NCBI GenBank assembly: GCA_902787555.1
Contig: CADAGO010000014.1
Span: forward strand, 1 to 56,866
Length of the DNA: 56,866 nt
Direction: 5' to 3'
From: an uncultured Bacteroidales bacterium
GTDB lineage: Bacteria; Bacteroidota; Bacteroidia; Bacteroidales; Bacteroidaceae
This document shows, piece by piece, positions 46,556 to 56,866 of the stretch (position 1 is its first letter; every line of letters starts with the position of its first letter). The notes below the pieces were generated by a model. That model saw only the letters and a list, made by a program, of their open reading frames with translations, was not told the origin of the DNA and did no database searches. The position numbers were made by a program, and so were the translations under genes.

Positions 46556-46584
46556 TATTTTTAACAACGGGTTAGAGTTTTTTT

Positions 46585-46620
46585 AATAAGCCTTTTATTC
46601 ATTTGAATGGAAGGCTTATT
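46585..46620 (+). terminator. Terminator of mdh
   Basis: AATAAGCCTT (46585-46594) pairs with AAGGCTTATT (46611-46620) around a 16-base loop, 30 bp after the mdh stop, with TTTTTTT just before the stem. Confidence 0.7.
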
Positions 46621-46693
46621 GCTATTAATTAAGGTGGAAAACACGTTAATACCATGTAAGGAAAACGAAAAACCCTAAAAAAAGTAAAAAAAA

Positions 46694-46725
46694 TTTGGTT
46701 AATAATAAAAGAACACGTAACTTTG
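46694..46725 (+). promoter_or_regulatory. Promoter of the response-regulator gene
   Basis: TTTG (46694-46697), 20 bases, TAACTTTG (46718-46725), then CAGGCCGAAAAG. Exact consensus and spacing. Leader about 43 bases to the ATG at 46775. Confidence 0.75.
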
Positions 46726-46774
46726 CAGGCCGAAAAGATTACTATTTTTTATTACTCATATTTAACTCACACTC

Positions 46775-47188
46775 ATGAACTCAAATATTAATCCAAACAT
46801 TAATGTTGACAAACTGAAGGTGTTGATTGTTGATGATGTGCCATTAAACATACTGCTTGTACGTAAGATGCTTGGGCAGTTCACATTTAAAGTTGAAACG
46901 GCAGCCAACGGTCAGCAAGCACTGGACATGATTAGTAACGAAGCACCAGATCTGATGTTGCTCGATTTGATGATGCCTGGTATTGATGGATTTGAAGTTA
47001 TTAGACGTGTACGTGCTTCCGAGAATACGAAAGATATGCCAATCATTATCCTTTCAGCGTTGAACTCTGAAGCCGATATCGTAAAAGGTATGGAACTTGG
47101 TGCTAATGACTTTGTCAACAAACCAATTATTATGGAAAGGCTTATTAATAGTGTAGTAAAACAAATCAATAAACTAGGTGAGAAATGA
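46775..47188 (+). CDS. Stand-alone response regulator receiver protein
   Basis: 137 residues, a single CheY-like receiver domain. Acidic pocket Asp20/Asp21 (LIVDDVP), phospho-acceptor Asp64 (LLDLMMPG), switch Ser94 (LSALNS) and Lys116 (NKP). There is no DNA-binding or output domain, so it must act by protein contact. A short Asn-rich N-terminus precedes it. It lies 204 bp upstream of the membrane protein of the exopolysaccharide-like cluster, with separate promoters; phosphorylation-controlled polymer synthesis is a reasonable inference. No sensor kinase is nearby. Confidence 0.92.
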   Translation: MNSNINPNINVDKLKVLIVDDVPLNILLVRKMLGQFTFKVETAANGQQALDMISNEAPDLMLLDLMMPGIDGFEVIRRVRASENTKDMPIIILSALNSEADIVKGMELGANDFVNKPIIMERLINSVVKQINKLGEK

Positions 47189-47326
47189 CAACCCCATAAC
47201 CACATTTTCTTCCAATCGTTTGGGGGGATTTGCGATAAATAACAATAATTTTGGGCTTTTTTGATTCTTAACGATTGTTTTTAGTATAAACTAGTGTTTA
47301 TTTCATTTTTGGGGACTTTTAAATTG

Positions 47327-47350
47327 TAATTTTGCACTCGAAAAGTGCAA
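47327..47350 (+). promoter_or_regulatory. -7 element overlapping a start-site hairpin
   Basis: TAATTTTG (47327-47334) is a -7 box. It runs into a hairpin TTGCACT (47332-47338), CGAAA loop, AGTGCAA (47344-47350) that spans the predicted transcription start. A TTTG lies only 15 bases upstream, short of the usual spacing. Confidence 0.5.
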
Positions 47351-47392
47351 TGTGTAAGAATTACAGACAAATATAATTGCAGATATTAATAA

Positions 47393-48607
47393 ATGACAGA
47401 TTTTATGTTTTCTCAAGTTGATGGTCCTATTGCAGAATTTTATGGTTGGGAAGTGATTGGGTATTACATCAACAACATACAAAACTATTTAGCGGAATAT
47501 TCTTGGCAAGTACGTACGGCTTACGGTCTGATTGTGGGTTGTATTTTCGTAATGATTATTCTTTTCATATTATTTGTTTTGATGATTAGAAAAACCACGA
47601 AATATAAGAAAGGTTACCATCAATTAGAAGAGAAGTTCCGTGAGCCGCTGTATCAAATCATGATTCTACCCGAACCACCTACAGTACAGGAAATAGAAGA
47701 GTTAATGGGTTGTAACTTTAACGAACTGAAGCAGTATGATTCGAGCATGTTTGCACAACTTATTTCTTCCCTGCGTATGGAACTATGTGAGGTCTTATAT
47801 TTGCCCAACATGCAGTATATCTGCGAAATCACAGGAGTGAAAGACTATTTCGAACGTTGTCTGACAAGCCGGAAAAAAGTGTTTGAAGTATTGCAAATGG
47901 TGGTTAATCTCAATATCCGCATCAATGAAGGAGAGTTGGCAATCTATCTCAACCACCACAATGCCAACATTCGCCTTATGGCACGTTTAGCTAATATCAT
48001 CTGTACAGAAAATGAGCCTTACAAATATCTGGAAGAGGACTTGAATCAGCGGATGCTGCCTTGGCGTCCAATGCTTACCCATCGACTATTCGGATGGTTA
48101 CAGGAATGTGGGCGTCCTATGCCATCGTTTATTGTTCTCGCTGAGTCACTTGAGAACGAACAAGCCTCTGCTTTCCTCATTGAAGAAGTGGCTTATTGGG
48201 GCAACGATACCGAGAAAGACGAATTGGCCAAGTTTTTCCAGGCTCCTCGTCACATCATCCGTCTGGCAGCCATGCGGGCTACTGCTCAATTGGCACGTGA
48301 AGCAAACGAGCCTGCATTGGTAGCATCGTATGACCATCAACCTGAGCCGATTAAGCGTGAAGTTATCAAGACTGTTCTTGCTATTCATTCTGGCAAACAA
48401 GTGGACTTTTTTGAGCGAGCATATCATTCAACATCATCCAAAGAAACCCAAGAACAAGCGATGTCTTGTCTATATATGTATGGCAATGAAGGTCGTCGCC
48501 GATTTGAAATGATTCGCTCAAGCTATCAACTGGGCGACGAGAACAGAACATTGCTTGACCAAATCGATGCGGCTAACTTGCTGAAACAGATGCAGCAGTT
48601 CTCTTAA
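47393..48607 (+). CDS. Membrane-anchored HEAT-like repeat protein
   Basis: 404 residues. Short extracytoplasmic N-terminus, one strong membrane helix (about 43-65, GLIVGCIFVMIILFILFVLMI), then a cytoplasmic all-helical domain with HEAT-like units (ANIRLMARLANIICTENEPYKYLEED; PRHIIRLAAMRATAQLAREANEPAL). It would be well placed to bind the response regulator and the glycosyltransferase on the cytoplasmic face. It lies 63 bp upstream of the glycosyltransferase. Related proteins sit beside similar glycosyltransferases in Bacteroidetes as far as I know, but they have no assigned function. Confidence 0.7.
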   Translation: MTDFMFSQVDGPIAEFYGWEVIGYYINNIQNYLAEYSWQVRTAYGLIVGCIFVMIILFILFVLMIRKTTKYKKGYHQLEEKFREPLYQIMILPEPPTVQEIEELMGCNFNELKQYDSSMFAQLISSLRMELCEVLYLPNMQYICEITGVKDYFERCLTSRKKVFEVLQMVVNLNIRINEGELAIYLNHHNANIRLMARLANIICTENEPYKYLEEDLNQRMLPWRPMLTHRLFGWLQECGRPMPSFIVLAESLENEQASAFLIEEVAYWGNDTEKDELAKFFQAPRHIIRLAAMRATAQLAREANEPALVASYDHQPEPIKREVIKTVLAIHSGKQVDFFERAYHSTSSKETQEQAMSCLYMYGNEGRRRFEMIRSSYQLGDENRTLLDQIDAANLLKQMQQFS

Positions 48608-48670
48608 TAGCAGTTCTCTTAATATTAATACAGACAATAAAGGATGATTAAATCATAAAACCCAACAATT

Positions 48671-50089
48671 ATGCTGAACTTTCTACTTTTATTCTACGGC
48701 TATATCATTTTCTTCTATTCGTTGGCGCTCATCACGTCATACGTGGCGTTACTGATTATGGCCTACATTTACAGTTCAAACTACAAACGATGGTCGGATG
48801 ATTATATCAAGCACATGGTTGATAGTACGCCTTATGTACCAGGGGTATCAATCGTGGCTCCTGCATACAATGAGGAAAAAACAGTAGTGGACAACATACG
48901 CTCGTTGTTACGTCAGGATTATCCAAACTTCGAAATCGTGATTGTGAACGATGGTAGCAAAGACCGTACATTGGAAACGATGATTGAAAATTTCGATTTG
49001 GTGGAGGTACCGTACGACTATATAGAACGCATCCATTGTCAACCATTTAAACGACTGTTTCGTTCGACCAGCCTAAAATACTCGAAATTGGTGGTTGTTG
49101 ACAAAATGAATGGAGGTACAAAGGCGGACGCAGTAAATGGCGGACTGAATGTGGTATCGAATCCCTATTTCATCAATACCGACGTGGACTGCATCCTGTC
49201 GAATGATGCCATTTATCATTGTATATTCCCTGTACTGCTTGACGACACTGTGATTGCCGTGAGTGGTACGATGAGTATGAGTAATGGTGCGACTATTGAA
49301 AACGGTGAGATTGTGGAACTCAAAACATCCACCAGACCTATACCTCTATTCCAAGACTTGGAATACAAACGAAGCTTCCTTATCGGTAAGATGGGATGGT
49401 CGTGTATTAACGCAATGAATAACGTGTCGGGTGGTTATGGACTCTTTAATTTGCAAATAGTTATTGCTGCTGGAGGATATGGATCTAAATCATTTGCTGA
49501 GGATATGGATATGTTATTCCGCATGATTGGATATTGCTGCGATTTTAACCGTCCATACCGTGTGGTTCAGATTCCTCATAACTGCTGTTGGACTGAAGGT
49601 CCATCGAATGTAAAGACATTGATTCGCCAGCGTGTACGTTGGGGACGTGGGCTGATTCAGGTAGTATGTGACCACTCACGTATGCTATTCAATCCCAAAT
49701 ACAAGACCTTGGGTATGCTTACATTCCCCTATACATTCTTGTTTGAGTTCCTAGCGCCGATGATTGAAGTAGTGGGTATTTTCCTGATTATTTATCTCGC
49801 CCTCACTGGAGGTGTGAACTGGGATACCTTCTTTATAATGTTCGGAGCAATCTTCCTCTTTAGTGTGATGCTCAGTTCGTTTGTGGTGTTCTACGATTAC
49901 CTGCTCGGTAGTTCATATCATAAATCAAATAGTTACGCATTGTTGATTTTAGCCGGTATCTTTGAACCGATTTTTTATCATCCTATTGTGGTGTTTTCTA
50001 CCATTCGTGGCTATTACAACCACCTGACTCGCAAGAAAGCTGTTTGGGGTGATATGAACCGTCAAGGTACCAAGAAAAAGAAAAAATAG
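48671..50089 (+). CDS. Processive family 2 glycosyltransferase (PgaC/NodC-like synthase)
   Basis: 472 residues. One or two N-terminal membrane helices, a GT2 domain, then about three C-terminal helices (FLAPMIEVVGIFLIIYLAL). All signature motifs of processive beta-glycosyl synthases are present: VAPAYNEE, VNDGSKD, DxD at Asp171/Asp173 (NTDVDC), the catalytic ED at Glu277/Asp278 (FAEDMD) and QRVRW at 320-324. It is predicted to polymerise a nucleotide sugar and push the chain across the inner membrane. The polymer is unknown; a beta-linked hexosaminan or glucan is possible. Translated just upstream of the TPR/barrel protein. Confidence 0.9.
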   Translation: MLNFLLLFYGYIIFFYSLALITSYVALLIMAYIYSSNYKRWSDDYIKHMVDSTPYVPGVSIVAPAYNEEKTVVDNIRSLLRQDYPNFEIVIVNDGSKDRTLETMIENFDLVEVPYDYIERIHCQPFKRLFRSTSLKYSKLVVVDKMNGGTKADAVNGGLNVVSNPYFINTDVDCILSNDAIYHCIFPVLLDDTVIAVSGTMSMSNGATIENGEIVELKTSTRPIPLFQDLEYKRSFLIGKMGWSCINAMNNVSGGYGLFNLQIVIAAGGYGSKSFAEDMDMLFRMIGYCCDFNRPYRVVQIPHNCCWTEGPSNVKTLIRQRVRWGRGLIQVVCDHSRMLFNPKYKTLGMLTFPYTFLFEFLAPMIEVVGIFLIIYLALTGGVNWDTFFIMFGAIFLFSVMLSSFVVFYDYLLGSSYHKSNSYALLILAGIFEPIFYHPIVVFSTIRGYYNHLTRKKAVWGDMNRQGTKKKKK

Positions 50090-50107
50090 TAATTGAATTT
50101 ATAAGTA

Positions 50108-53074
50108 ATGGAAATGAAACAGTATATAATAGTGAAGGTTTTTCTCTTCATAGTGGTATGCACAGCAATGAGCCTTTGCACATCGATACCGATGATGGCA
50201 CAGGTAAAGCGTAATAGCATCACAGACTTGATTGAAAAGAATCCTGGATACTATGAAGAAACAGTGCGTAGCCATTTCAAACAAGGACAATGGGCTGCTG
50301 GAAAGAAACTATTGGACGAAGGAATGAAGGAGTATTCGTATGTGTCAGCACTTAACGAGCTGATGGGACAATACTACTATCACTTCAAACAATATGACAA
50401 GGCAAGATACCACCTCATCAATTCACTGAAGGATGATAATTCCAACCATCAAGCACGAGAGCTGTTGGTGAAAGTAGAAGAAGAAACCAAAAACTACTCA
50501 TCAGCCATTGTTTATGTAAACGAGCTATTGGAAGTAAGTCCATATAGTGAACCCTTATGGCGTAAGAAGATTGCCCTCTATCGCTATTTGGGCAACGACC
50601 ATGAGGCGGACCTCTTGTTGGAACGACTGAGAAGCATTTACCCCGACAATGAACGCATACAAAATGACTGGAATTATCGTGTGGAGATGAAATATCTGAA
50701 ACAGCACAGAGAAGGGGATGCACAGGCACAGTTTGAAACGTTGAGACAACTGATTCAGATAAGTCCTAAGAATCCAGAATACTATTTGGCACTTTCGAAC
50801 CTGCTGTTGCAATATGGACACGATGCTGAAGCTGCCGAGATTGCTGGTGAGGGTGCAGCGACAACCAACTCGCCTGCATTGGTAGAGAAGAAAGTGGGTA
50901 TCTTGGCAGGAATGAACCATTTTGATGAAGCACGCGCATTTCTTACTTCACTCAAAAACACCCATTATTCTGCATTGGCTACACGATTGAACAAAAACCT
51001 GCAGATGGATGCAGCCAGGGCGTCACAGATGAATGACCCTTATATCCAATATGCAAAGGCGTATGATGCAAATCATTCTCCTGAAGCTCTCACCTTCTTG
51101 CTCAACACCTCTATTTCACGAGGATATTACGATGATGCTTTGGAATATATTGCTGAAACAAAGAAACAACAGGGAAACAAAGAGACTCCCGAACTATTGT
51201 ATAAGGAATATTTGGTGAACCGTCGTTTGGGCAATGTAACAAAGGCCAACAATCTACTCAACAAGCTGTATGCTCTCAATCCGGATAATGAGGAAGTAGC
51301 AACCGAATTGGCACGTATCAATAACGACAAAGCCCAAGAATTTATGCGATACGAACAATATGATGAGGCTATACCATTATTGATAACAGCATCGCAAGAT
51401 AAGGTGGATCCAGAGTTGAGAAAAGCATCGATGCTTAAACTGTTTAACTGTTACATGCTTTCAAAACACTATCCCGAAGCACAACAGACACTCGATGATT
51501 ATAACCGATTATTCAACTACAACGCATACCGGCAGCTGAAGGCGCGTCTATATAACGAACAGGGATTGCCGACTAAGGCTTTGGATGTGCTGCGTGAGGG
51601 CTATATGTACGGACCTGACTCCCTGAAAGCCGACTATGCGGGCACTTACGAGGAAATTGCAACTCCATATATCAAATCTTTGATTGCGGAAGGTATGCTC
51701 TTTGTTGCAGACAGCCAAATCAAAGATGCAATCGAGATATGTCCCAACAGCAACAGCATCCTGAGAATGGGTATTACCACCTCTCAACTACTGAGGAATG
51801 AACAGCAAGCTGCACAATATGTACAAATAGGCAGGGAAGTATTTCCCGACGATCCGTTCTTTATCATCAAAGAAGCTCAGACATATCAGGCAAAAGGCGA
51901 AGACCGTCATGCCATCGATATCATGTCCCCCCTATTGGAGACATATATCGGCGATTCAACTGTAATCGGCACTTATGTGACAAGTTGTCAATCCCTCGCC
52001 CAGAAGTATATGAAGCACAAGCAATATGACAACGCTATGGCGTTGGTGGATTCAGCACTGACGATCTGGCCGACTCATTCTGAGTTACTTTACACGAAAG
52101 GATTGATTTACAAGGATATGCACGAGTACAACAAGGCATTCGAGTACCTAAGTATGTATAAGCCGTCGTTAGCTGAACAGACTGCGCATCATCGTTTGCT
52201 CAATGATGTACTTAACAAGACCTATCGCAATACATTGGTATTTGAATACCAACAAGCTCGTCATGGAGCATCGGCAAGTATCTCTGCCAATGCTGCAGCA
52301 AGCTATACCCGACGAACAGAAAAGAATGAGTACACCTTCGATGTGAATTACTTAGGGCGTGACGGTACGGCTGCAGAAGGAGCAAGCGAAATGGTAGAGG
52401 GTGGTACTGGTGTAATGATTGGAGGGCAATGGAAACACAACTTTTCCAAGAAATTCAATGCTTACGGAAAAGTGGCATGGGCCAACAAGTATTTCCCTGA
52501 GTGGACGTTCAAGGGGGGAATATCGCAAGAACTTCCTCGAAATTGGACGGTGAACATCGATGGGTGTTTCCGCAGAATCCAAACATACGAAGGTGTATTT
52601 GAACAGAGAGTAGATAAATATGTACTGTTGGGATGGCTAAGAAAATTCAAACGTTTGTATTCTGCCTCGCTTGGGGTGACCAAATCGTACGATCAGTTTA
52701 TCTTGTCGGGAGGTGTTAATGGTTTTATCTTGACAAAAAACTTCTTCTTCAGCGGACAGGCAAAAATGCAGTTCTTTCCTGTAGAAGGTGATCGAAGCCA
52801 TATTTTTGCCGCTGCAGGACTTGGAACAGCACCAGAGAATTCCATCATTGATAGATCGTTACCTTCTACTTTCGATCATCTGAATACTTTTGTAGGCCTT
52901 GGGGGGTATTATACTTACAATCAGCATCTGGGATTCACGTTGTCTGGCACATGGTACACGATGTACACCCAGAATGAAGAGCAAACATCTGGATTGTTGG
53001 AAACAAACCCAAGTTTCGGTACTATATACATCAATATGTTCTATATAAATGCCTCAGTTGTTATCAACTTTTAA
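50108..53074 (+). CDS. TPR plus outer-membrane barrel protein (PgaA/YaiO-like exporter)
   Basis: 988 residues. Signal peptide (about 1-32, ending MMAQ). Residues about 35-700 are TPR repeats (KAMKYLYHFKQYDKARYHLINSL-type helices, for example AQKYMKHKQYDNAMALVDSAL). Residues about 715-988 are beta strands resembling the YaiO family barrel (YTRRTEKNEYTFDVNYLGRD, WKHNFSKKFNAYGKVAWANKYFPEWTFKGG) and end in INASVVINF with a C-terminal Phe. The layout is that of PgaA, which exports poly-N-acetylglucosamine. It starts 18 bp after the synthase gene and should form the outer-membrane port. Confidence 0.85.
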   Translation: MEMKQYIIVKVFLFIVVCTAMSLCTSIPMMAQVKRNSITDLIEKNPGYYEETVRSHFKQGQWAAGKKLLDEGMKEYSYVSALNELMGQYYYHFKQYDKARYHLINSLKDDNSNHQARELLVKVEEETKNYSSAIVYVNELLEVSPYSEPLWRKKIALYRYLGNDHEADLLLERLRSIYPDNERIQNDWNYRVEMKYLKQHREGDAQAQFETLRQLIQISPKNPEYYLALSNLLLQYGHDAEAAEIAGEGAATTNSPALVEKKVGILAGMNHFDEARAFLTSLKNTHYSALATRLNKNLQMDAARASQMNDPYIQYAKAYDANHSPEALTFLLNTSISRGYYDDALEYIAETKKQQGNKETPELLYKEYLVNRRLGNVTKANNLLNKLYALNPDNEEVATELARINNDKAQEFMRYEQYDEAIPLLITASQDKVDPELRKASMLKLFNCYMLSKHYPEAQQTLDDYNRLFNYNAYRQLKARLYNEQGLPTKALDVLREGYMYGPDSLKADYAGTYEEIATPYIKSLIAEGMLFVADSQIKDAIEICPNSNSILRMGITTSQLLRNEQQAAQYVQIGREVFPDDPFFIIKEAQTYQAKGEDRHAIDIMSPLLETYIGDSTVIGTYVTSCQSLAQKYMKHKQYDNAMALVDSALTIWPTHSELLYTKGLIYKDMHEYNKAFEYLSMYKPSLAEQTAHHRLLNDVLNKTYRNTLVFEYQQARHGASASISANAAASYTRRTEKNEYTFDVNYLGRDGTAAEGASEMVEGGTGVMIGGQWKHNFSKKFNAYGKVAWANKYFPEWTFKGGISQELPRNWTVNIDGCFRRIQTYEGVFEQRVDKYVLLGWLRKFKRLYSASLGVTKSYDQFILSGGVNGFILTKNFFFSGQAKMQFFPVEGDRSHIFAAAGLGTAPENSIIDRSLPSTFDHLNTFVGLGGYYTYNQHLGFTLSGTWYTMYTQNEEQTSGLLETNPSFGTIYINMFYINASVVINF

Positions 53075-53084
53075 TGTTTGAAAC

Positions 53085-54404
53085 ATGAAAAAGAAAACAA
53101 CATTTAAAGCTATATATAATTTCTGTCTGTGTTTAATCGGCTTAACCTCATGCTACGCACAGAACAAGAATGTACACCCTGCTTCTCCATTTGAATTTAG
53201 GGGCATATATAGTCCTACCAATGCCCTTGATAACATTCGCGACCAATATGGAACACATCATGTGGATTACGATTGGGGATTATGGGGGCATAATCTGCAT
53301 AAAGTAGTGGGAGAGAATCCCGATGAAAGTATTGTTGCAACAATTGATGGGAAAAAAGATAAAGATCAGTATTGTTTCAGCAGTGATAAGATGTACAGCC
53401 AGCTGGTGGAATATATCATTGATAATTTTGGAGACGGTGAAACTCCTGGTTCGTCCACACGTATCAGCATTATGCCTCGCGACAATAAGAAGTCATGCAC
53501 CTGCAAGCAGTGTATTGCTGCGGGTAATACAGCCACAAATGCCACACCTGCTGTCACCAATATGCTGCGCAAATTGGCAAAACGGTTCCCAAAACACCAA
53601 TTTTTCACTTCTGCTTACCATTCCACACGTATGGCTCCAACGGAGAAGTTGCCAGCGAATGTTGGTGTATTCATCAGTGCTATCGACTTGCCGATGAGAG
53701 TTACATTCACAGAGACTAAAGGATATAGGACATTTATGGGGTTAGTGAAAGAGTGGAAGGAAAAAACAGATCTCATTTATGTGTGGGATTACTCCAGAAA
53801 CTTTAGTGACTACCTTTCTCCATTTCCCTGTTTGAAAGTCATGCAACGTCGATTACAATTATTTAATCGTTTGGGGGTTAAAGGTATTTTCCTAAATGGA
53901 AGTGGGGACGATTATGCCACATTCGATGATATGCAGACCTGCATTCTTGCGAAGATGATGTACGACTTGGCTCTTGATGTAGATGCAGAAATACAAAAAT
54001 ACTATAAGACGAACTACCCAGAGACAGGGAAGCTAATTGCTGACTACTATCTACAATTGGAACACAGAGTGGATGAGAGCAATCACATCATTCCATTGTA
54101 TGGTTCTATGGAAGAGGAAGTCGCCTCTTACCTCAATGTCAAAGCATTTACTGAATTCCGCTCACGTTTGGAAGATGCTTCTAAGAAAGCAACTGGCGCA
54201 GAGAAAGAAAAGTTACGTTATATGCTGACCGCACTGAGTTTTACTCATTTGCAAATGTTAGCGATGAAACCATCCGACGACAACCAACAGCTGAAAGCTC
54301 AATTGATTGAACAATTGAAAGGGCATAAACAGTTGAAAGGGATGAATAACTATGGAGAGACTGATGCTGTGATAGATACATATATTCAGAAAATAGATAA
54401 CTAA
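53085..54404 (+). CDS. DUF4838-type lipoprotein, glycoside-hydrolase-like
   Basis: 439 residues. Lipobox GLTSC at about residue 23, so an outer-membrane lipoprotein. The SIMPRDNKKSCTCKQCIAAGN motif (CxC-x2-C) and LIYVWDYSRNFSDYLSPFPCLKVMQRRLQLFNRLGVKGIFLNGSGDDYATFDDMQ-type region are DUF4838 features; such proteins have barrel folds related to GH20/GH67 enzymes. The C-terminal 100 residues are helical. Ten bp after the exporter gene, it could trim, modify or release the polymer, the place PgaB holds in the pga system. No polysaccharide-deacetylase motif is present. Confidence 0.75.
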   Translation: MKKKTTFKAIYNFCLCLIGLTSCYAQNKNVHPASPFEFRGIYSPTNALDNIRDQYGTHHVDYDWGLWGHNLHKVVGENPDESIVATIDGKKDKDQYCFSSDKMYSQLVEYIIDNFGDGETPGSSTRISIMPRDNKKSCTCKQCIAAGNTATNATPAVTNMLRKLAKRFPKHQFFTSAYHSTRMAPTEKLPANVGVFISAIDLPMRVTFTETKGYRTFMGLVKEWKEKTDLIYVWDYSRNFSDYLSPFPCLKVMQRRLQLFNRLGVKGIFLNGSGDDYATFDDMQTCILAKMMYDLALDVDAEIQKYYKTNYPETGKLIADYYLQLEHRVDESNHIIPLYGSMEEEVASYLNVKAFTEFRSRLEDASKKATGAEKEKLRYMLTALSFTHLQMLAMKPSDDNQQLKAQLIEQLKGHKQLKGMNNYGETDAVIDTYIQKIDN

Positions 54405-54424
54405 ATATAGAGTTTAAGTATATT

Positions 54425-55420
54425 ATGATGGCCAAAAAAAGATATTATGCATTCGCGTTCACGATGCTTATATTGCCCACATTCGTGTTCTTTACATCTT
54501 GCAAAAAGATACTAGGTCCTACAAAAGTAGAAATCGAAGACTCCGTCCGCCATTATTTACCTGTTGTGCTAGGTGATGATGTCAGGATGATTTGGGTTAT
54601 CAAAAACGTTGGAAACGAGAATCTTGTAATCAAAGACATTCAACCATCTAACGGTTCTATTGAATTCAAGTCTTTAGAAACAAGTCTTATTCCGCCAGGA
54701 GGTGAGGAGAGTTTATTCGTTGTCTTTCATTCTACAAAAAATGTTGGATATGCCGAGCATAAGATTCGACTATTTGGTAATATTGAACCAAATGGTGTTG
54801 CTGAAATGAAGTTCGATATCCATATAGTACGTCCTACACTTGACCGAACAGATTATGAAGAGATCTATTTTGATAAGGAAGCTAATCGTATTGATGAGGA
54901 GGCCTTCAAGAAGGCCCGATTGAACAAGGCATACTACACAGATGACGATCCTGGAGACCTTATCTACGTACCTGAGAAAGAAGATTCCACCCAACACTCT
55001 CGTTCCGTTAGAGAATTGAATAGAGTTGGAGAGTTGAGGCAGAATGACAATAGTGTGACAGAAAAGACTATCGCCTACAAAGAATTCCAAGCAGGAGAAT
55101 CGAATGGAATGTATAAAGATGTTATTTTCTTCTTGCCTCGCAAAGCAGATGTCAATAACGAGAACATCATTGATGAAGTTGTAATCTGGTATAACAATCA
55201 TCCAAACAAAACAATTTATTTAAGAGGTTATGCCGACAAAGAAACTGGAAATAAACAATTGAACCTTCAATTATCCAACATGCGCGTCAATAATATTACA
55301 GACCTCTTGACACGCAAAGGAGTTCCTGCCGACAAGATAAAAACACATGCCTATGGTGATACGATTCAGCCATTTACAGAGAGTGGTCGTAACCGATGTG
55401 CGATTATTGACATTAAATAG
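54425..55420 (+). CDS. Lipoprotein with DUF1573-like and OmpA-like domains
   Basis: 331 residues. Lipobox-like FFTSC at about residue 26. The N-terminal Ig-like domain (IWVIKNVGNENLVIKDIQPSNGSIEF...SLIPPGGEESLFVVFHS) fits DUF1573. The C-terminal domain (LRGYADKETGNKQLNLQLSNMRVNNITDLLTRKGVPADKIKTHAYGDT) is OmpA-like, normally a peptidoglycan anchor; a disordered acidic linker joins them. It starts 20 bp after the DUF4838 gene and probably fixes the export machinery to the cell wall. Confidence 0.85.
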   Translation: MMAKKRYYAFAFTMLILPTFVFFTSCKKILGPTKVEIEDSVRHYLPVVLGDDVRMIWVIKNVGNENLVIKDIQPSNGSIEFKSLETSLIPPGGEESLFVVFHSTKNVGYAEHKIRLFGNIEPNGVAEMKFDIHIVRPTLDRTDYEEIYFDKEANRIDEEAFKKARLNKAYYTDDDPGDLIYVPEKEDSTQHSRSVRELNRVGELRQNDNSVTEKTIAYKEFQAGESNGMYKDVIFFLPRKADVNNENIIDEVVIWYNNHPNKTIYLRGYADKETGNKQLNLQLSNMRVNNITDLLTRKGVPADKIKTHAYGDTIQPFTESGRNRCAIIDIK

Positions 55421-55535: not shown

Positions 55536-56183
55536 ATGAAGCAGTTGGGACTCTATAGATGGATCAAAGTAATAGTGCTTTTGCTGATGAGCAATAGTGC
55601 TATTGCACAGCAAATTGTTGTTGACGAAACAACGGATCCCGTGGCTGGTGCACCTATTTTCCAACATGCTGCAGGATATGCAGGAATGGTCGTTTATGAC
55701 GGAGAGGAAATACCATGGGTGGTTCTTTCTGATGTCTATATTTTCAACAAGCTTGTGTTTAAAAACGAACGTCAGGCAAAAAAGTATTACAAGATTGCAG
55801 CAAATATCAAGAAAGTGTATCCGATAGCAGTCGATATACAAAAGACAATCAATGCCTGCGTGGCGCATCTCGATTCACTGCCTACTAAGGCGGAGAAAGA
55901 TGAGTACATGAAACAGGTAGAAAAAGACTTGCGTAAACAATATACACCCCGACTGAAAAAACTGACATTTGCACAAGGGAAACTACTCATAAAGCTGATT
56001 GACCGTCAATGTGGGCAAACCAGTTACCAATTAATTAAAACATATATGGGTAAGTTTAAGGCCGGATTATCCAATGCCATTGCAACCTTGTTTGGTGCCA
56101 GTTTGAAGAAACAATATGATCCTGAAGACGATGACCGACTGACTGAACGATGTATTCTACTCATTGAGTCGGGACAAATGTAA
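55536..56183 (+). CDS. DUF4294 family secreted protein
   Basis: 215 residues. Signal peptide about 1-25 (ending SAIAQQ). The mature domain has the DUF4294 signatures: YDGEEIPWVVLSDVYIFNKLVFKNERQAKKYYKIAANIKKVYPIA and LTFAQGKLLIKLIDRQCGQTSYQLIKTYMGKFKAGL. The family is widespread in Bacteroidetes and of unknown function. It has its own promoter and may lie in the same transcript as the gene at 56257. Confidence 0.88.
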   Translation: MKQLGLYRWIKVIVLLLMSNSAIAQQIVVDETTDPVAGAPIFQHAAGYAGMVVYDGEEIPWVVLSDVYIFNKLVFKNERQAKKYYKIAANIKKVYPIAVDIQKTINACVAHLDSLPTKAEKDEYMKQVEKDLRKQYTPRLKKLTFAQGKLLIKLIDRQCGQTSYQLIKTYMGKFKAGLSNAIATLFGASLKKQYDPEDDDRLTERCILLIESGQM

Positions 56184-56256
56184 TATACTTCCGCTTTACG
56201 AAATAAACAATAGTATCAAGATGAGATTATTCAATATCATATCTCCCAACAACGAC

Positions 56257-56866
56257 ATGAAAACAAAAGGGTATCTAAGTACACTCTTTGTAAGTGTAAT
56301 GATGATTCATTTCCTTTCATCTCAAGCACAGGAAATTACCCCATCCGTTTCAGATACCTCTCATGTATCTCAAATGATTGATTACCTTCAGAAAGCCATG
56401 CGGTTCAACCTTTACACTCCACAGGAAAAGGTGTATCTTCATTTTGACAACACGGGCTATTTCAAGGGCGAATACATCCGCTTTAAGGCCTACGTCACAC
56501 GTTGTGATACTGAGCGGAAGACCGACCTGAGCCATGTGCTCTATGTGGAACTGGTGAATCCGTCAGGTGATGTCGTGGAACGCCGTAAGCTGAAAATTGT
56601 GGACGGTGAGGCTGACGGTGACATCAAGGTGGACAGTATCCAGACAACAGGATTCTATGAGGTGCGTGCCTATACACGCTATATGACCAACTGGGGAAGT
56701 CATGCCTGCTTCTCACGCGTCTTTCCTATTTTCAAGTCACCCAAGCGTGAGGGGGACTACAGCCGTTTGGAACTGGACAAGATCAGTTATCAGAAACGTC
56801 TGCCAAACACCCGAAAGGATGAGGACAGCGTGATTGTCGATACATACACCCATGCGATGACCATGC
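56257..56866 (+). CDS. Large secreted MG2-like protein (partial, runs off the window)
   Basis: At least 203 residues from ATG at 56257, which begins a signal peptide (MKTKGYLSTLFVSVMMIHFL, cleaved after SSQA); an in-frame ATG at 56221 would add 12 residues. The visible part has the macroglobulin MG2-type strand pattern (PQEKVYLHFDNTGYFKGEYIRFKAYVT...HVLYVELVNPSGDVVERRKLKI), as in large Bacteroidetes surface proteins that often continue into carboxypeptidase-regulatory or TonB-plug domains. The rest is beyond the window. Confidence 0.75.
   Translation, partial: MKTKGYLSTLFVSVMMIHFLSSQAQEITPSVSDTSHVSQMIDYLQKAMRFNLYTPQEKVYLHFDNTGYFKGEYIRFKAYVTRCDTERKTDLSHVLYVELVNPSGDVVERRKLKIVDGEADGDIKVDSIQTTGFYEVRAYTRYMTNWGSHACFSRVFPIFKSPKREGDYSRLELDKISYQKRLPNTRKDEDSVIVDTYTHAMTM

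Follow-up and report, generated by a model that had tools for sequence, protein, structure and literature searches.

The general plan of the Pga system comprises a membrane family 2 glycosyltransferase (GT2) synthase, a TPR-barrel exporter and an envelope protein with a glycosidase-like barrel. GT2-centred operons have also been associated with extracellular polysaccharide or with biofilm in Xanthomonas (xagABCD) and, as xag-like genes, in stalk-forming iron oxidisers (PMC3609779, PMC4643136, PMC8250860), and a BcsB-like gene adjoins an xagB-like gene (PMC4643136). The accessible portions of these sources mention no HEAT protein for xag (PMC3609779, PMC4643136, PMC8250860); the likeness of xag to the cluster reported here is one of description. 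The accessible text on Clostridium perfringens lists an adjacent HEAT protein (CP4_0467, 377 aa) and GT2 (CP4_0468, 466 aa), annotated ‘chitin synthase’; there the authors call the relevance of the pair unclear and do not discuss the pairing (PMC2879425). Its sizes match those of the HEAT–GT2 pairs described below, of which it appears to be an earlier listing, likened by size and adjacency. Other papers (PMC12419801, PMC3071791, PMC10434189) deal, in their accessible portions, with other HEAT proteins or with HEAT not linked to GT2. No description of a cluster combining HEAT–GT2, TPR-barrel and DUF4838 proteins was found in the literature searched, and control of polymer secretion by HEAT protein and phosphorelay is apparently undescribed.

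The window analysed here is a stretch of 56,866 nucleotides from an uncultured Bacteroidales bacterium (contig CADAGO010000014.1). ORF calling on the forward strand gives six co-oriented open ORFs at 46775-55420 (Table 1); these, with their Pfam matches, bear out the gene content and common orientation given in a preliminary description of the locus. The gaps of 10-63 bp also quoted there hold from the HEAT gene through to the DUF1573 gene (HEAT/GT2 63, GT2/TPR 18, TPR/DUF4838 10 and DUF4838/DUF1573 20 bp), but the receiver gene lies 204 bp before HEAT and is therefore outside that range. The two putative lipoproteins carry lipobox-like LTSC and FTSC, by pattern match only. The ‘perfect promoter’ said to precede the receiver gene is an exact pattern match and putative: TTTG-N17-22-TANNTTTG is found five times in the window against a shuffle mean of 1.5 and, since 4 of 100 shuffles reach at least five, a single match is suggestive only. 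Scans of the window for sigma-70-type promoters and for terminators found sites no commoner than in shuffles. Genes for DUF4294 and MG2-domain proteins, which follow the cluster, were not retained as members because, of 93 loci, none was found to carry them apart from the window and near relatives in the same genus.

Table 1. Features of the cluster, with positions in the window and the evidence for each
Feature	Position	Strand	Evidence
Promoter match, Bacteroidetes-type TTTG-N20-TAACTTTG (putative)	46694..46725	+	Exact pattern match, 5' of receiver gene
Stand-alone receiver, CheY-like, 137 aa	46775..47188	+	Pfam PF00072 Response_reg 3.3e-31
HEAT-repeat membrane protein, 404 aa, one TM helix (47-65); proposed synthase partner	47393..48607	+	ORF, Pfam, topology; neighbourhood and reciprocal test
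Processive-type family 2 glycosyltransferase (GT2), 472 aa	48671..50089	+	Glycos_transf_2 1.2e-18; motifs
TPR superhelix and C-terminal YaiO-like β-barrel, 988 aa, last residue F; proposed exporter	50108..53074	+	TPR_19 3.6e-26; hhalign; 14-strand model
DUF4838 protein, lipobox-like N-terminus, 439 aa; modelled TIM-barrel, glycosidase-like	53085..54404	+	DUF4838 3e-39; model, Foldseek, conserved residues
DUF1573 and OmpA-domain protein, lipobox-like N-terminus, 331 aa; proposed anchor	54425..55420	+	OmpA 7.1e-11, DUF1573 1.4e-7

Conservation of the cluster was assessed over loci drawn from the best 80 among the matches listed in a scan. The preliminary description had made its reading depend on conserved neighbours, and the order GT2, TPR-barrel, DUF4838, DUF1573, with its HEAT partner, is indeed retained across loci. 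Because it persists at only ~20-50% protein identity, the order goes beyond chance, and a chance neighbourhood is ruled out by locus comparison together with the reciprocal test described below. The window-type version, with long TPR-barrel, DUF4838 and usually DUF1573, falls within one GT2 clade that is nearly all Bacteroidota. Culturable environmental species such as Flavobacterium suaedae, Flavobacterium saccharophilum and Massilia alkalitolerans are among the relatives identified. Among the loci listed, the long TPR-barrel accompanies DUF4838 in 33 of 35 cases and a DUF1573 neighbour is seen in 23 of the 29 DUF4838 loci testable, the ~330-aa form of the latter being confined to the same genus.

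By these sequence comparisons the HEAT–GT2 pair is a widely conserved core, a point absent from the preliminary description. Among 91 distinct GT2 loci listed, 79 have enough flank, and a HEAT ORF lies directly 5' of GT2 in 75 of these; the pairs listed span eight phyla. In the reciprocal test, which covered 149 genomes of the order, a GT2 match directly follows 14 of the 17 HEAT matches, and 14 of the 16 GT2 matches above 500 bits have HEAT. The window HEAT protein is itself sub-threshold for HEAT_2 (16.2 bits, cut-off 27.7, E 0.013), a profile that exceeds its cut-off in all five relatives scanned, while most of the scores for HEAT proteins from distant phyla are low (26-108 bits).

The place of the receiver is less uniform. 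Of 75 testable loci, 45 have a receiver-domain ORF in the 2.5 kb before HEAT (by a count with a single-domain profile that includes locus L104 and passes over L035) and the other 30 have none there, so that the receiver is not a universal member of the cluster. Thirty of the loci with DUF4838 are testable: 10 of them have a receiver upstream and three others have one downstream. It could then be that the window receiver is an unrelated neighbour particular to its genus and that the HEAT–GT2 and export genes run without phosphorelay control, a view consistent with the receiver's wide gap, its own promoter match and its absence from same-genus loci with more distant clusters (L026 has none upstream of HEAT). 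We consider this unlikely. Receivers are some five times denser just upstream of HEAT (54 per 237 locus-kb) than in the flanks (39 per 932), although the Fisher test on this association ignores kinship among the loci, which are the best 80 among the matches listed. In nine loci (L070, L095, L100-L103, L105, L109 and L110) the HEAT ORF follows immediately on the receiver ORF, with an offset of 0. Receivers more than 43% identical to that of the window follow the cluster in L035 and L036; in L035 two histidine kinases stand upstream of HEAT and the receiver comes after DUF1573.

The nature of the upstream regulators also bears on c-di-GMP. It had been suggested that the phosphorylated receiver and HEAT protein replace c-di-GMP control, and for the family as a whole this fails: of the 16 long regulator ORFs that precede HEAT, 8 carry GGDEF. 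Synthase-dependent systems can be broadly characterised by a membrane GT2 with DxD, ED and QxxRW motifs, by a co-encoded TPR protein and outer-membrane barrel, and by post-translational control through c-di-GMP binding. The window cluster has the first and, by homology and modelling, the second; as for the third, a search of the window genome (82% complete) yielded neither GGDEF nor PilZ, and GGDEF-bearing relatives exist.

In having a membrane GT2, a TPR-barrel exporter and an envelope protein whose barrel is predicted to be glycosidase-like, the cluster resembles PgaABCD; it differs in its YaiO-like barrel, its HEAT protein and, often, phosphorelay genes, and in lacking a deacetylase and PgaD. 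The latter two had been reported missing, and neither is found within the cluster by ORFs and Pfam; the one Polysacc_deac_1 match over cut-off in the window genome is on another contig (C31), outside the cluster. A divergent Pga system making poly-β-1,6-GlcNAc, in which GT2 is PgaC, the TPR-barrel PgaA, DUF4838 stands in for PgaB and HEAT for PgaD, draws on the fact that, among curated NCBIfam families, PgaC/IcaA (TIGR03937, 1.8e-35) matches the GT2 best and that residues 103-247 of the exporter match the TPR part, and only that part, of PgaA (TIGR03939). At 122.7 bits against a cut-off of 422.3 and 40 against 366.65, however, both scores are far too low for the kinship with Pga drawn in the preliminary description, and direct membership of PgaABCD is ruled out by these curated cut-offs. 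With the barrel siding with YaiO, PgaB-type GHL13 absent from the window genome (82% complete), the deacetylase missing from the cluster and PgaB absent among the best 50 Foldseek matches listed for DUF4838, a divergent Pga system seems improbable.

The exporter has the 988 residues and terminal Phe previously described, its barrel resting on homology and a model. Its C-terminal half aligns with the TPR-YaiO (PF19413) proteins of sister loci (hhalign probability 100, E 1.6e-39), four of which (L051, L068, L070 and L104) score over the YaiO cut-off. Unlike these, the window exporter is twice as long and has no Pfam YaiO match, and it reaches only 18.4 bits with TIGR04390 (cut-off 32). The structural model has 14 strands (pTM 0.48) and, since the best 50 Foldseek matches listed for it include TPR-type proteins, the barrel class rests on hhalign and the strand model, which point to a barrel related to YaiO.

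For DUF4838, a model (pLDDT 91.7) suggests a TIM barrel like those of the GH138, GH115 and GH20 glycosidases. These are its top Foldseek matches, at 3.3e-6 and weaker, with ~10% identity and modest TM-scores by query length (0.36-0.47 in the ten best rows). Two aspartates, D133 (33 of 33 rows) and D235 (32 of 33), are conserved and are candidate catalytic carboxylates. A PDB search with the single sequence retrieved nothing; the family profile gave one strong match, to a β-hexosaminidase (6q63, 1e-15), and other weak ones, but the 6q63 match falls in long DUF4838 forms, outside the barrel and outside the part that the window protein has. Profile comparison of DUF4838 with the recurrent partner groups c9, c10 and c11 gave nothing. 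Its position and its modelled, glycosidase-like fold make plausible the earlier proposal that DUF4838 substitutes for PgaB.

We consider that the cluster probably directs polysaccharide secretion of the synthase-dependent kind, in a form where the synthase has HEAT as its partner and where input from a phosphorelay is frequent. The complete processive motif set claimed earlier is present (DVDC at 171, EDMD at 277, QRVRW at 320) and, together with the TPR-barrel and conserved order, it supports secretion, export being what we infer. The inner-membrane GT2 would polymerise a sugar nucleotide and extrude the chain. HEAT, with one TM anchor and cytosolic repeats, would serve the synthase as a partner subunit and is where the phosphorylated receiver would probably dock; we propose that, through this docking, a histidine-kinase signal would raise or lower synthesis. 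In the periplasm the DUF4838 lipoprotein, with its glycosidase-like barrel, may bind or trim the chain, which the TPR superhelix would guide and the YaiO-like barrel release across the outer membrane; the export complex would be anchored by the DUF1573(-OmpA) lipoprotein. The PgaC-like score and GH20-like fold hint, weakly, at an amino-sugar polymer. An alternative in which GT2 modifies a lipid or surface glycan with no secreted polymer, TPR-barrel and DUF4838 serving glycan uptake or envelope upkeep, might appeal to the putative nature of GT2's substrate and product, to the lack of any characterised DUF4838 member found in the literature and to the Bacillota loci that keep HEAT–GT2 without an outer membrane, but it is a poor prospect given Q..RW in 93 of 93 GT2 rows of the window's relatives, DxD-like motifs in 91 (ED, by the same strict patterns, in 80), a predicted C-terminal multi-helix membrane region and recurrent pairing of GT2 with TPR-barrel exporters of two sizes.

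More tentatively, HEAT–GT2 could represent an ancient polysaccharide synthase of two subunits that occurs in eight or more phyla. Its cytosolic HEAT scaffold would bind phosphorylated receivers, either free or fused to GGDEF, and gate the synthase, giving polymer secretion a control principle that operates alongside the direct binding of c-di-GMP. The core would stay constant while modules for export and trimming are swapped around it: the long TPR-barrel together with DUF4838, the short TPR-YaiO, and sulfatase proteins. Should HEAT prove to be a synthase partner in general, a single protein pair would explain surface-polymer switching in many bacteria, including Bacteroidota genomes without detected GGDEF. 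There would be a role for GT2 genes now labelled ‘PgaC-like’ or ‘chitin synthase’, and a concrete setting for DUF4838 and DUF1573 proteins.

In one further locus, L098, which adds to the 75 with adjacent HEAT and GT2, a single ORF of 967 aa has a long N-terminal helical half ahead of GT2. That half is scored by neither Pfam nor the HEAT profile, and when the ORF was aligned with HEAT and GT2 sequences entered as rows of their own, the HEAT rows landed on the GT2 half; from its predicted architecture we regard it as a probable HEAT–GT2 fusion. This probable fusion, with the loci that unite kinase, receiver and synthase, makes the idea of a HEAT-gated synthase directly testable.

The six same-orientation ORFs at the end of the window (table below), a single entire contig of 56,866 bases in an assembly 82% complete, are best read as a synthase-dependent polysaccharide secretion cluster in a form of its own. 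Their domains and the GT2 motifs bear out the preliminary description, and the cluster is both real and conserved. The gaps, in cluster order, are 204, 63, 18, 10 and 20 bp: the tight spacing proposed there holds after HEAT (63-10 bp) but not for the receiver, which is set apart by the longer gap. Upstream, a terminator-like stem of 17 pairs separates a malate-dehydrogenase-like gene from the putative promoter of the receiver; stems of this kind are no more frequent in the region than by chance (5 found against 6.4 expected). The DUF4294 and MG2-domain genes after the cluster, the latter truncated by the contig end, adjoin it only in same-genus loci.

Features of the window cluster and of related loci (L numbers, loci around GT2 relatives)
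Feature	Location	Strand	Length	Remarks
Terminator-like stem	window 46584-46621
Promoter pattern TTTG-N20-TAACTTTG	window 46694-46725			exact match
Six-ORF cluster	window 46775-55420
Receiver			137 aa	first of the six ORFs
HEAT protein			404 aa	single TM helix; HEAT similarity weak
GT2			472 aa	DVDC at 171, EDMD at 277, QRVRW at 320
TPR-barrel protein			988 aa
DUF4838 protein			439 aa
DUF1573-OmpA protein			331 aa
DUF4294 gene, then MG2-domain gene	window 55536-56865
HEAT-GT2 fusion (probable)	L098:8522-11422	+	967 aa	N-terminal TM helix, long helical stretch, then GT2
Tandem GT2 pair after HEAT	L052, L054, L057 (~8.4-11.5 kb); L062 (7.8-10.8 kb)
Genes surrounding operon	L035:5558-8580; L036:17218-21406			histidine kinases (L035) and receivers
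Protein group c9	L031:3299-5932; L065:459-3089			large; Ig-like domains, type IX secretion tail

The near relatives of the window are Bacteroidales, Prevotellaceae being common among them, and GT2 is present at E <= 1e-40 in 12 of the 61 searched. The neighbours are conserved: five more distant relatives (L025, L026, L028, L029, L030) retain the order GT2, TPR-barrel, DUF4838, DUF1573 despite protein identities of ~27-50%, and HEAT precedes GT2 wherever their contigs are long enough. A GT2 profile scan of one genome per species gave at least 466 stretches with a relative. The best 80, with 12 relatives' regions and the window, make up the set of 93 loci (91 distinct) used below, and per-gene profiles were searched over all of its 3,327 ORFs regardless of position.

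In this set (best 80 of at least 466, plus 13), a same-strand HEAT ORF adjoins GT2 upstream in 75 of the 79 distinct loci whose sequence extends 1 kb or more on that side. By name, the 75 include Bacteroidota, Bacillota, Pseudomonadota, Acidobacteriota, Gemmatimonadota, Elusimicrobiota, Fidelibacterota and Rhodothermota. Four of them (L052, L054, L057, L062) carry a second GT2 between HEAT and GT2, as if the synthase had been doubled. Of the four loci with no adjacent HEAT (L033, L088, L096, L098), the Nitrospirota L088 and L096 have a HEAT ORF ~6 kb upstream, preceded by a receiver, and in L033 the GT2 match is weak. Outside Bacteroidota the HEAT profile scores mostly 26-108 bits (192-212 in three loci); both such proteins scanned (L101, L097) pass the Pfam HEAT_2 cut-off. 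The L098 ORF, from a Bacillota MAG and immediately preceded by a receiver/degenerate GGDEF ORF, is probably a natural HEAT-GT2 fusion, its first half being called HEAT from reading of the sequence because neither the HEAT profile nor Pfam scored it.

The pairing is also reciprocal. The HEAT profile matches 17 of 149 genomes of the order, once per genome, and directly precedes a GT2 match in 14; of the other three, two score 43 bits and one, in G058 (71 bits), is at the end of its contig. Conversely, HEAT accompanies 14 of the 16 GT2 matches above 500 bits. One exception, in G049, begins at contig position 7; the other (G160:C59) has no HEAT match, nor do five GT2 matches of 322-349 bits in these 149 genomes. 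A pair so patchy (14/149 genomes), yet nearly always complete, is as expected if HEAT and GT2 act jointly.

Regulatory genes recur upstream. A single-domain receiver profile, applied to the coding strand of HEAT over the 2.5 kb preceding it, finds a receiver-containing ORF in 45 of 75 testable loci of the best-80-plus-13 set and none in the other 30. Between -4 and -2 kb from GT2, receivers number 54 in 237 locus-kb, compared with 39 in 932 for the flanks (Fisher p ~4e-17, counting loci as independent despite kinship), and in nine loci of the set the receiver and HEAT ORFs abut. Receiver domains occur in 15 of the set's 16 long regulators encoded upstream of HEAT, GGDEF in eight and Hpt in four; the sixteenth is a histidine kinase of L035. 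DUF4838 loci have an upstream receiver in 10 of 30 testable cases and a downstream one in three others (L035, L036, L069). L035 and L036 are among the window's nearest sister lineages. In the former, two histidine kinase genes lie upstream of HEAT, and DUF1573 is followed by a receiver sharing 44% identity with the window's; in the latter, two receivers (56% and 53%) occupy that position, then a 1,109-aa ORF. Given this placement around the operon, the kinase of the window receiver may be encoded elsewhere in its genome. Neither GGDEF nor PilZ was found in the window genome (82% complete). Found across phyla and accompanied by phosphorelay genes, the HEAT-GT2 core is a larger result than the window cluster alone.

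The PgaABCD system, which synthesizes and exports PNAG, works on a similar general plan. That likeness stands, but membership does not: the window GT2 and exporter miss the PgaC (122.7/422.3 bits) and PgaA (40/366.65 bits) cut-offs, the window genome (82% complete) contains no GHL13 and, as claimed, no deacetylase is found among the cluster's ORFs. A 2010 paper on Clostridium perfringens lists neighbouring genes for a HEAT protein of 377 aa and a GT2 of 466 aa, possibly comparable with the window's, under the names 'putative heat repeat' and 'chitin synthase', their relevance unclear to the authors (PMC2879425). The main text of a synthase-dependent operon classification (PMC7112194) gives no hit to Bacteroidetes, Bacteroides, Prevotella, HEAT or response regulator, and the Xag papers, in the excerpts consulted, concern other GT2-centred operons (PMC3609779, PMC4643136, PMC8250860). 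In the literature searched, neither the cluster nor a HEAT-GT2 system is described; 'undescribed' is valid only within it, since subscription papers and preprints fall mostly outside.

The sequences themselves establish the parts, their order, the HEAT-GT2 pairing and the enrichment of receivers. In the mechanism we propose, GT2 would synthesize and extrude a polymer, HEAT would be its partner and receive the phosphorylated receiver, DUF4838 would trim the chain, the TPR-barrel would export it and DUF1573(-OmpA) would provide anchoring. The HEAT repeats are predicted to be cytosolic because a basic flank follows the single TM helix. We regard the scheme as a whole as fairly probable, polymer secretion being likelier than the HEAT/receiver gating step.

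The window DUF4838 protein gives a confident structure model (pLDDT 91.7, pTM 0.88) whose predicted fold best matches GH138 (3.3e-6), GH115 and GH20 enzymes in a Foldseek search of the PDB. The ten highest-ranking rows are ~10% identical to it, with TM 0.36-0.47 by query length. A search with the family profile adds β-hexosaminidase 6q63 (1e-15), aligned over a C-terminal stretch without counterpart in the window's short form. Across 33 aligned rows, H69, D133, Y178 and three cysteines never vary, and D235 is kept in 32 rows and replaced by E in the other. This protein, the sole DUF4838 match in its genome, likely trims or binds the polymer chain.

In the best-80-plus-13 set the long TPR-barrel occurs in 33 of 35 distinct DUF4838 loci; of the 29 whose sequence continues for 900 bases or more past DUF4838, 23 have DUF1573. 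The ~330-aa OmpA-bearing form of DUF1573 is limited to same-genus loci, other DUF1573 neighbours having 167-252 aa. All 33 long-barrel loci fall inside one 37-row set (SH-aLRT 99) of a quick, midpoint-rooted GT2 tree of 89 rows from these loci; one of the 33 is L057, whose Beijerinckiaceae label is perhaps a binning error. A short TPR protein replaces the long one in 23 loci of the set, 20 of them Bacteroidota; those scanned (L051, L068, L070, L104) are above the YaiO cut-off or YaiO-grouped by score. Over profile positions 540-937, their C-terminal portion, the long exporters match the short ones with hhalign probability 100 (E 1.6e-39), and the window model comprises a TPR superhelix and 14 strands, a predicted barrel (pLDDT 83.4, pTM 0.48). 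Two further protein groups recur near HEAT-GT2 loci. No Pfam match was obtained for the Bacillota members of c9 scanned. The other, c10 (~570-810 aa), lies downstream of GT2 in L066, L070, L073, L078, L086 and L087, and its two members scanned (L070, L086) match Sulfatase PF00884.
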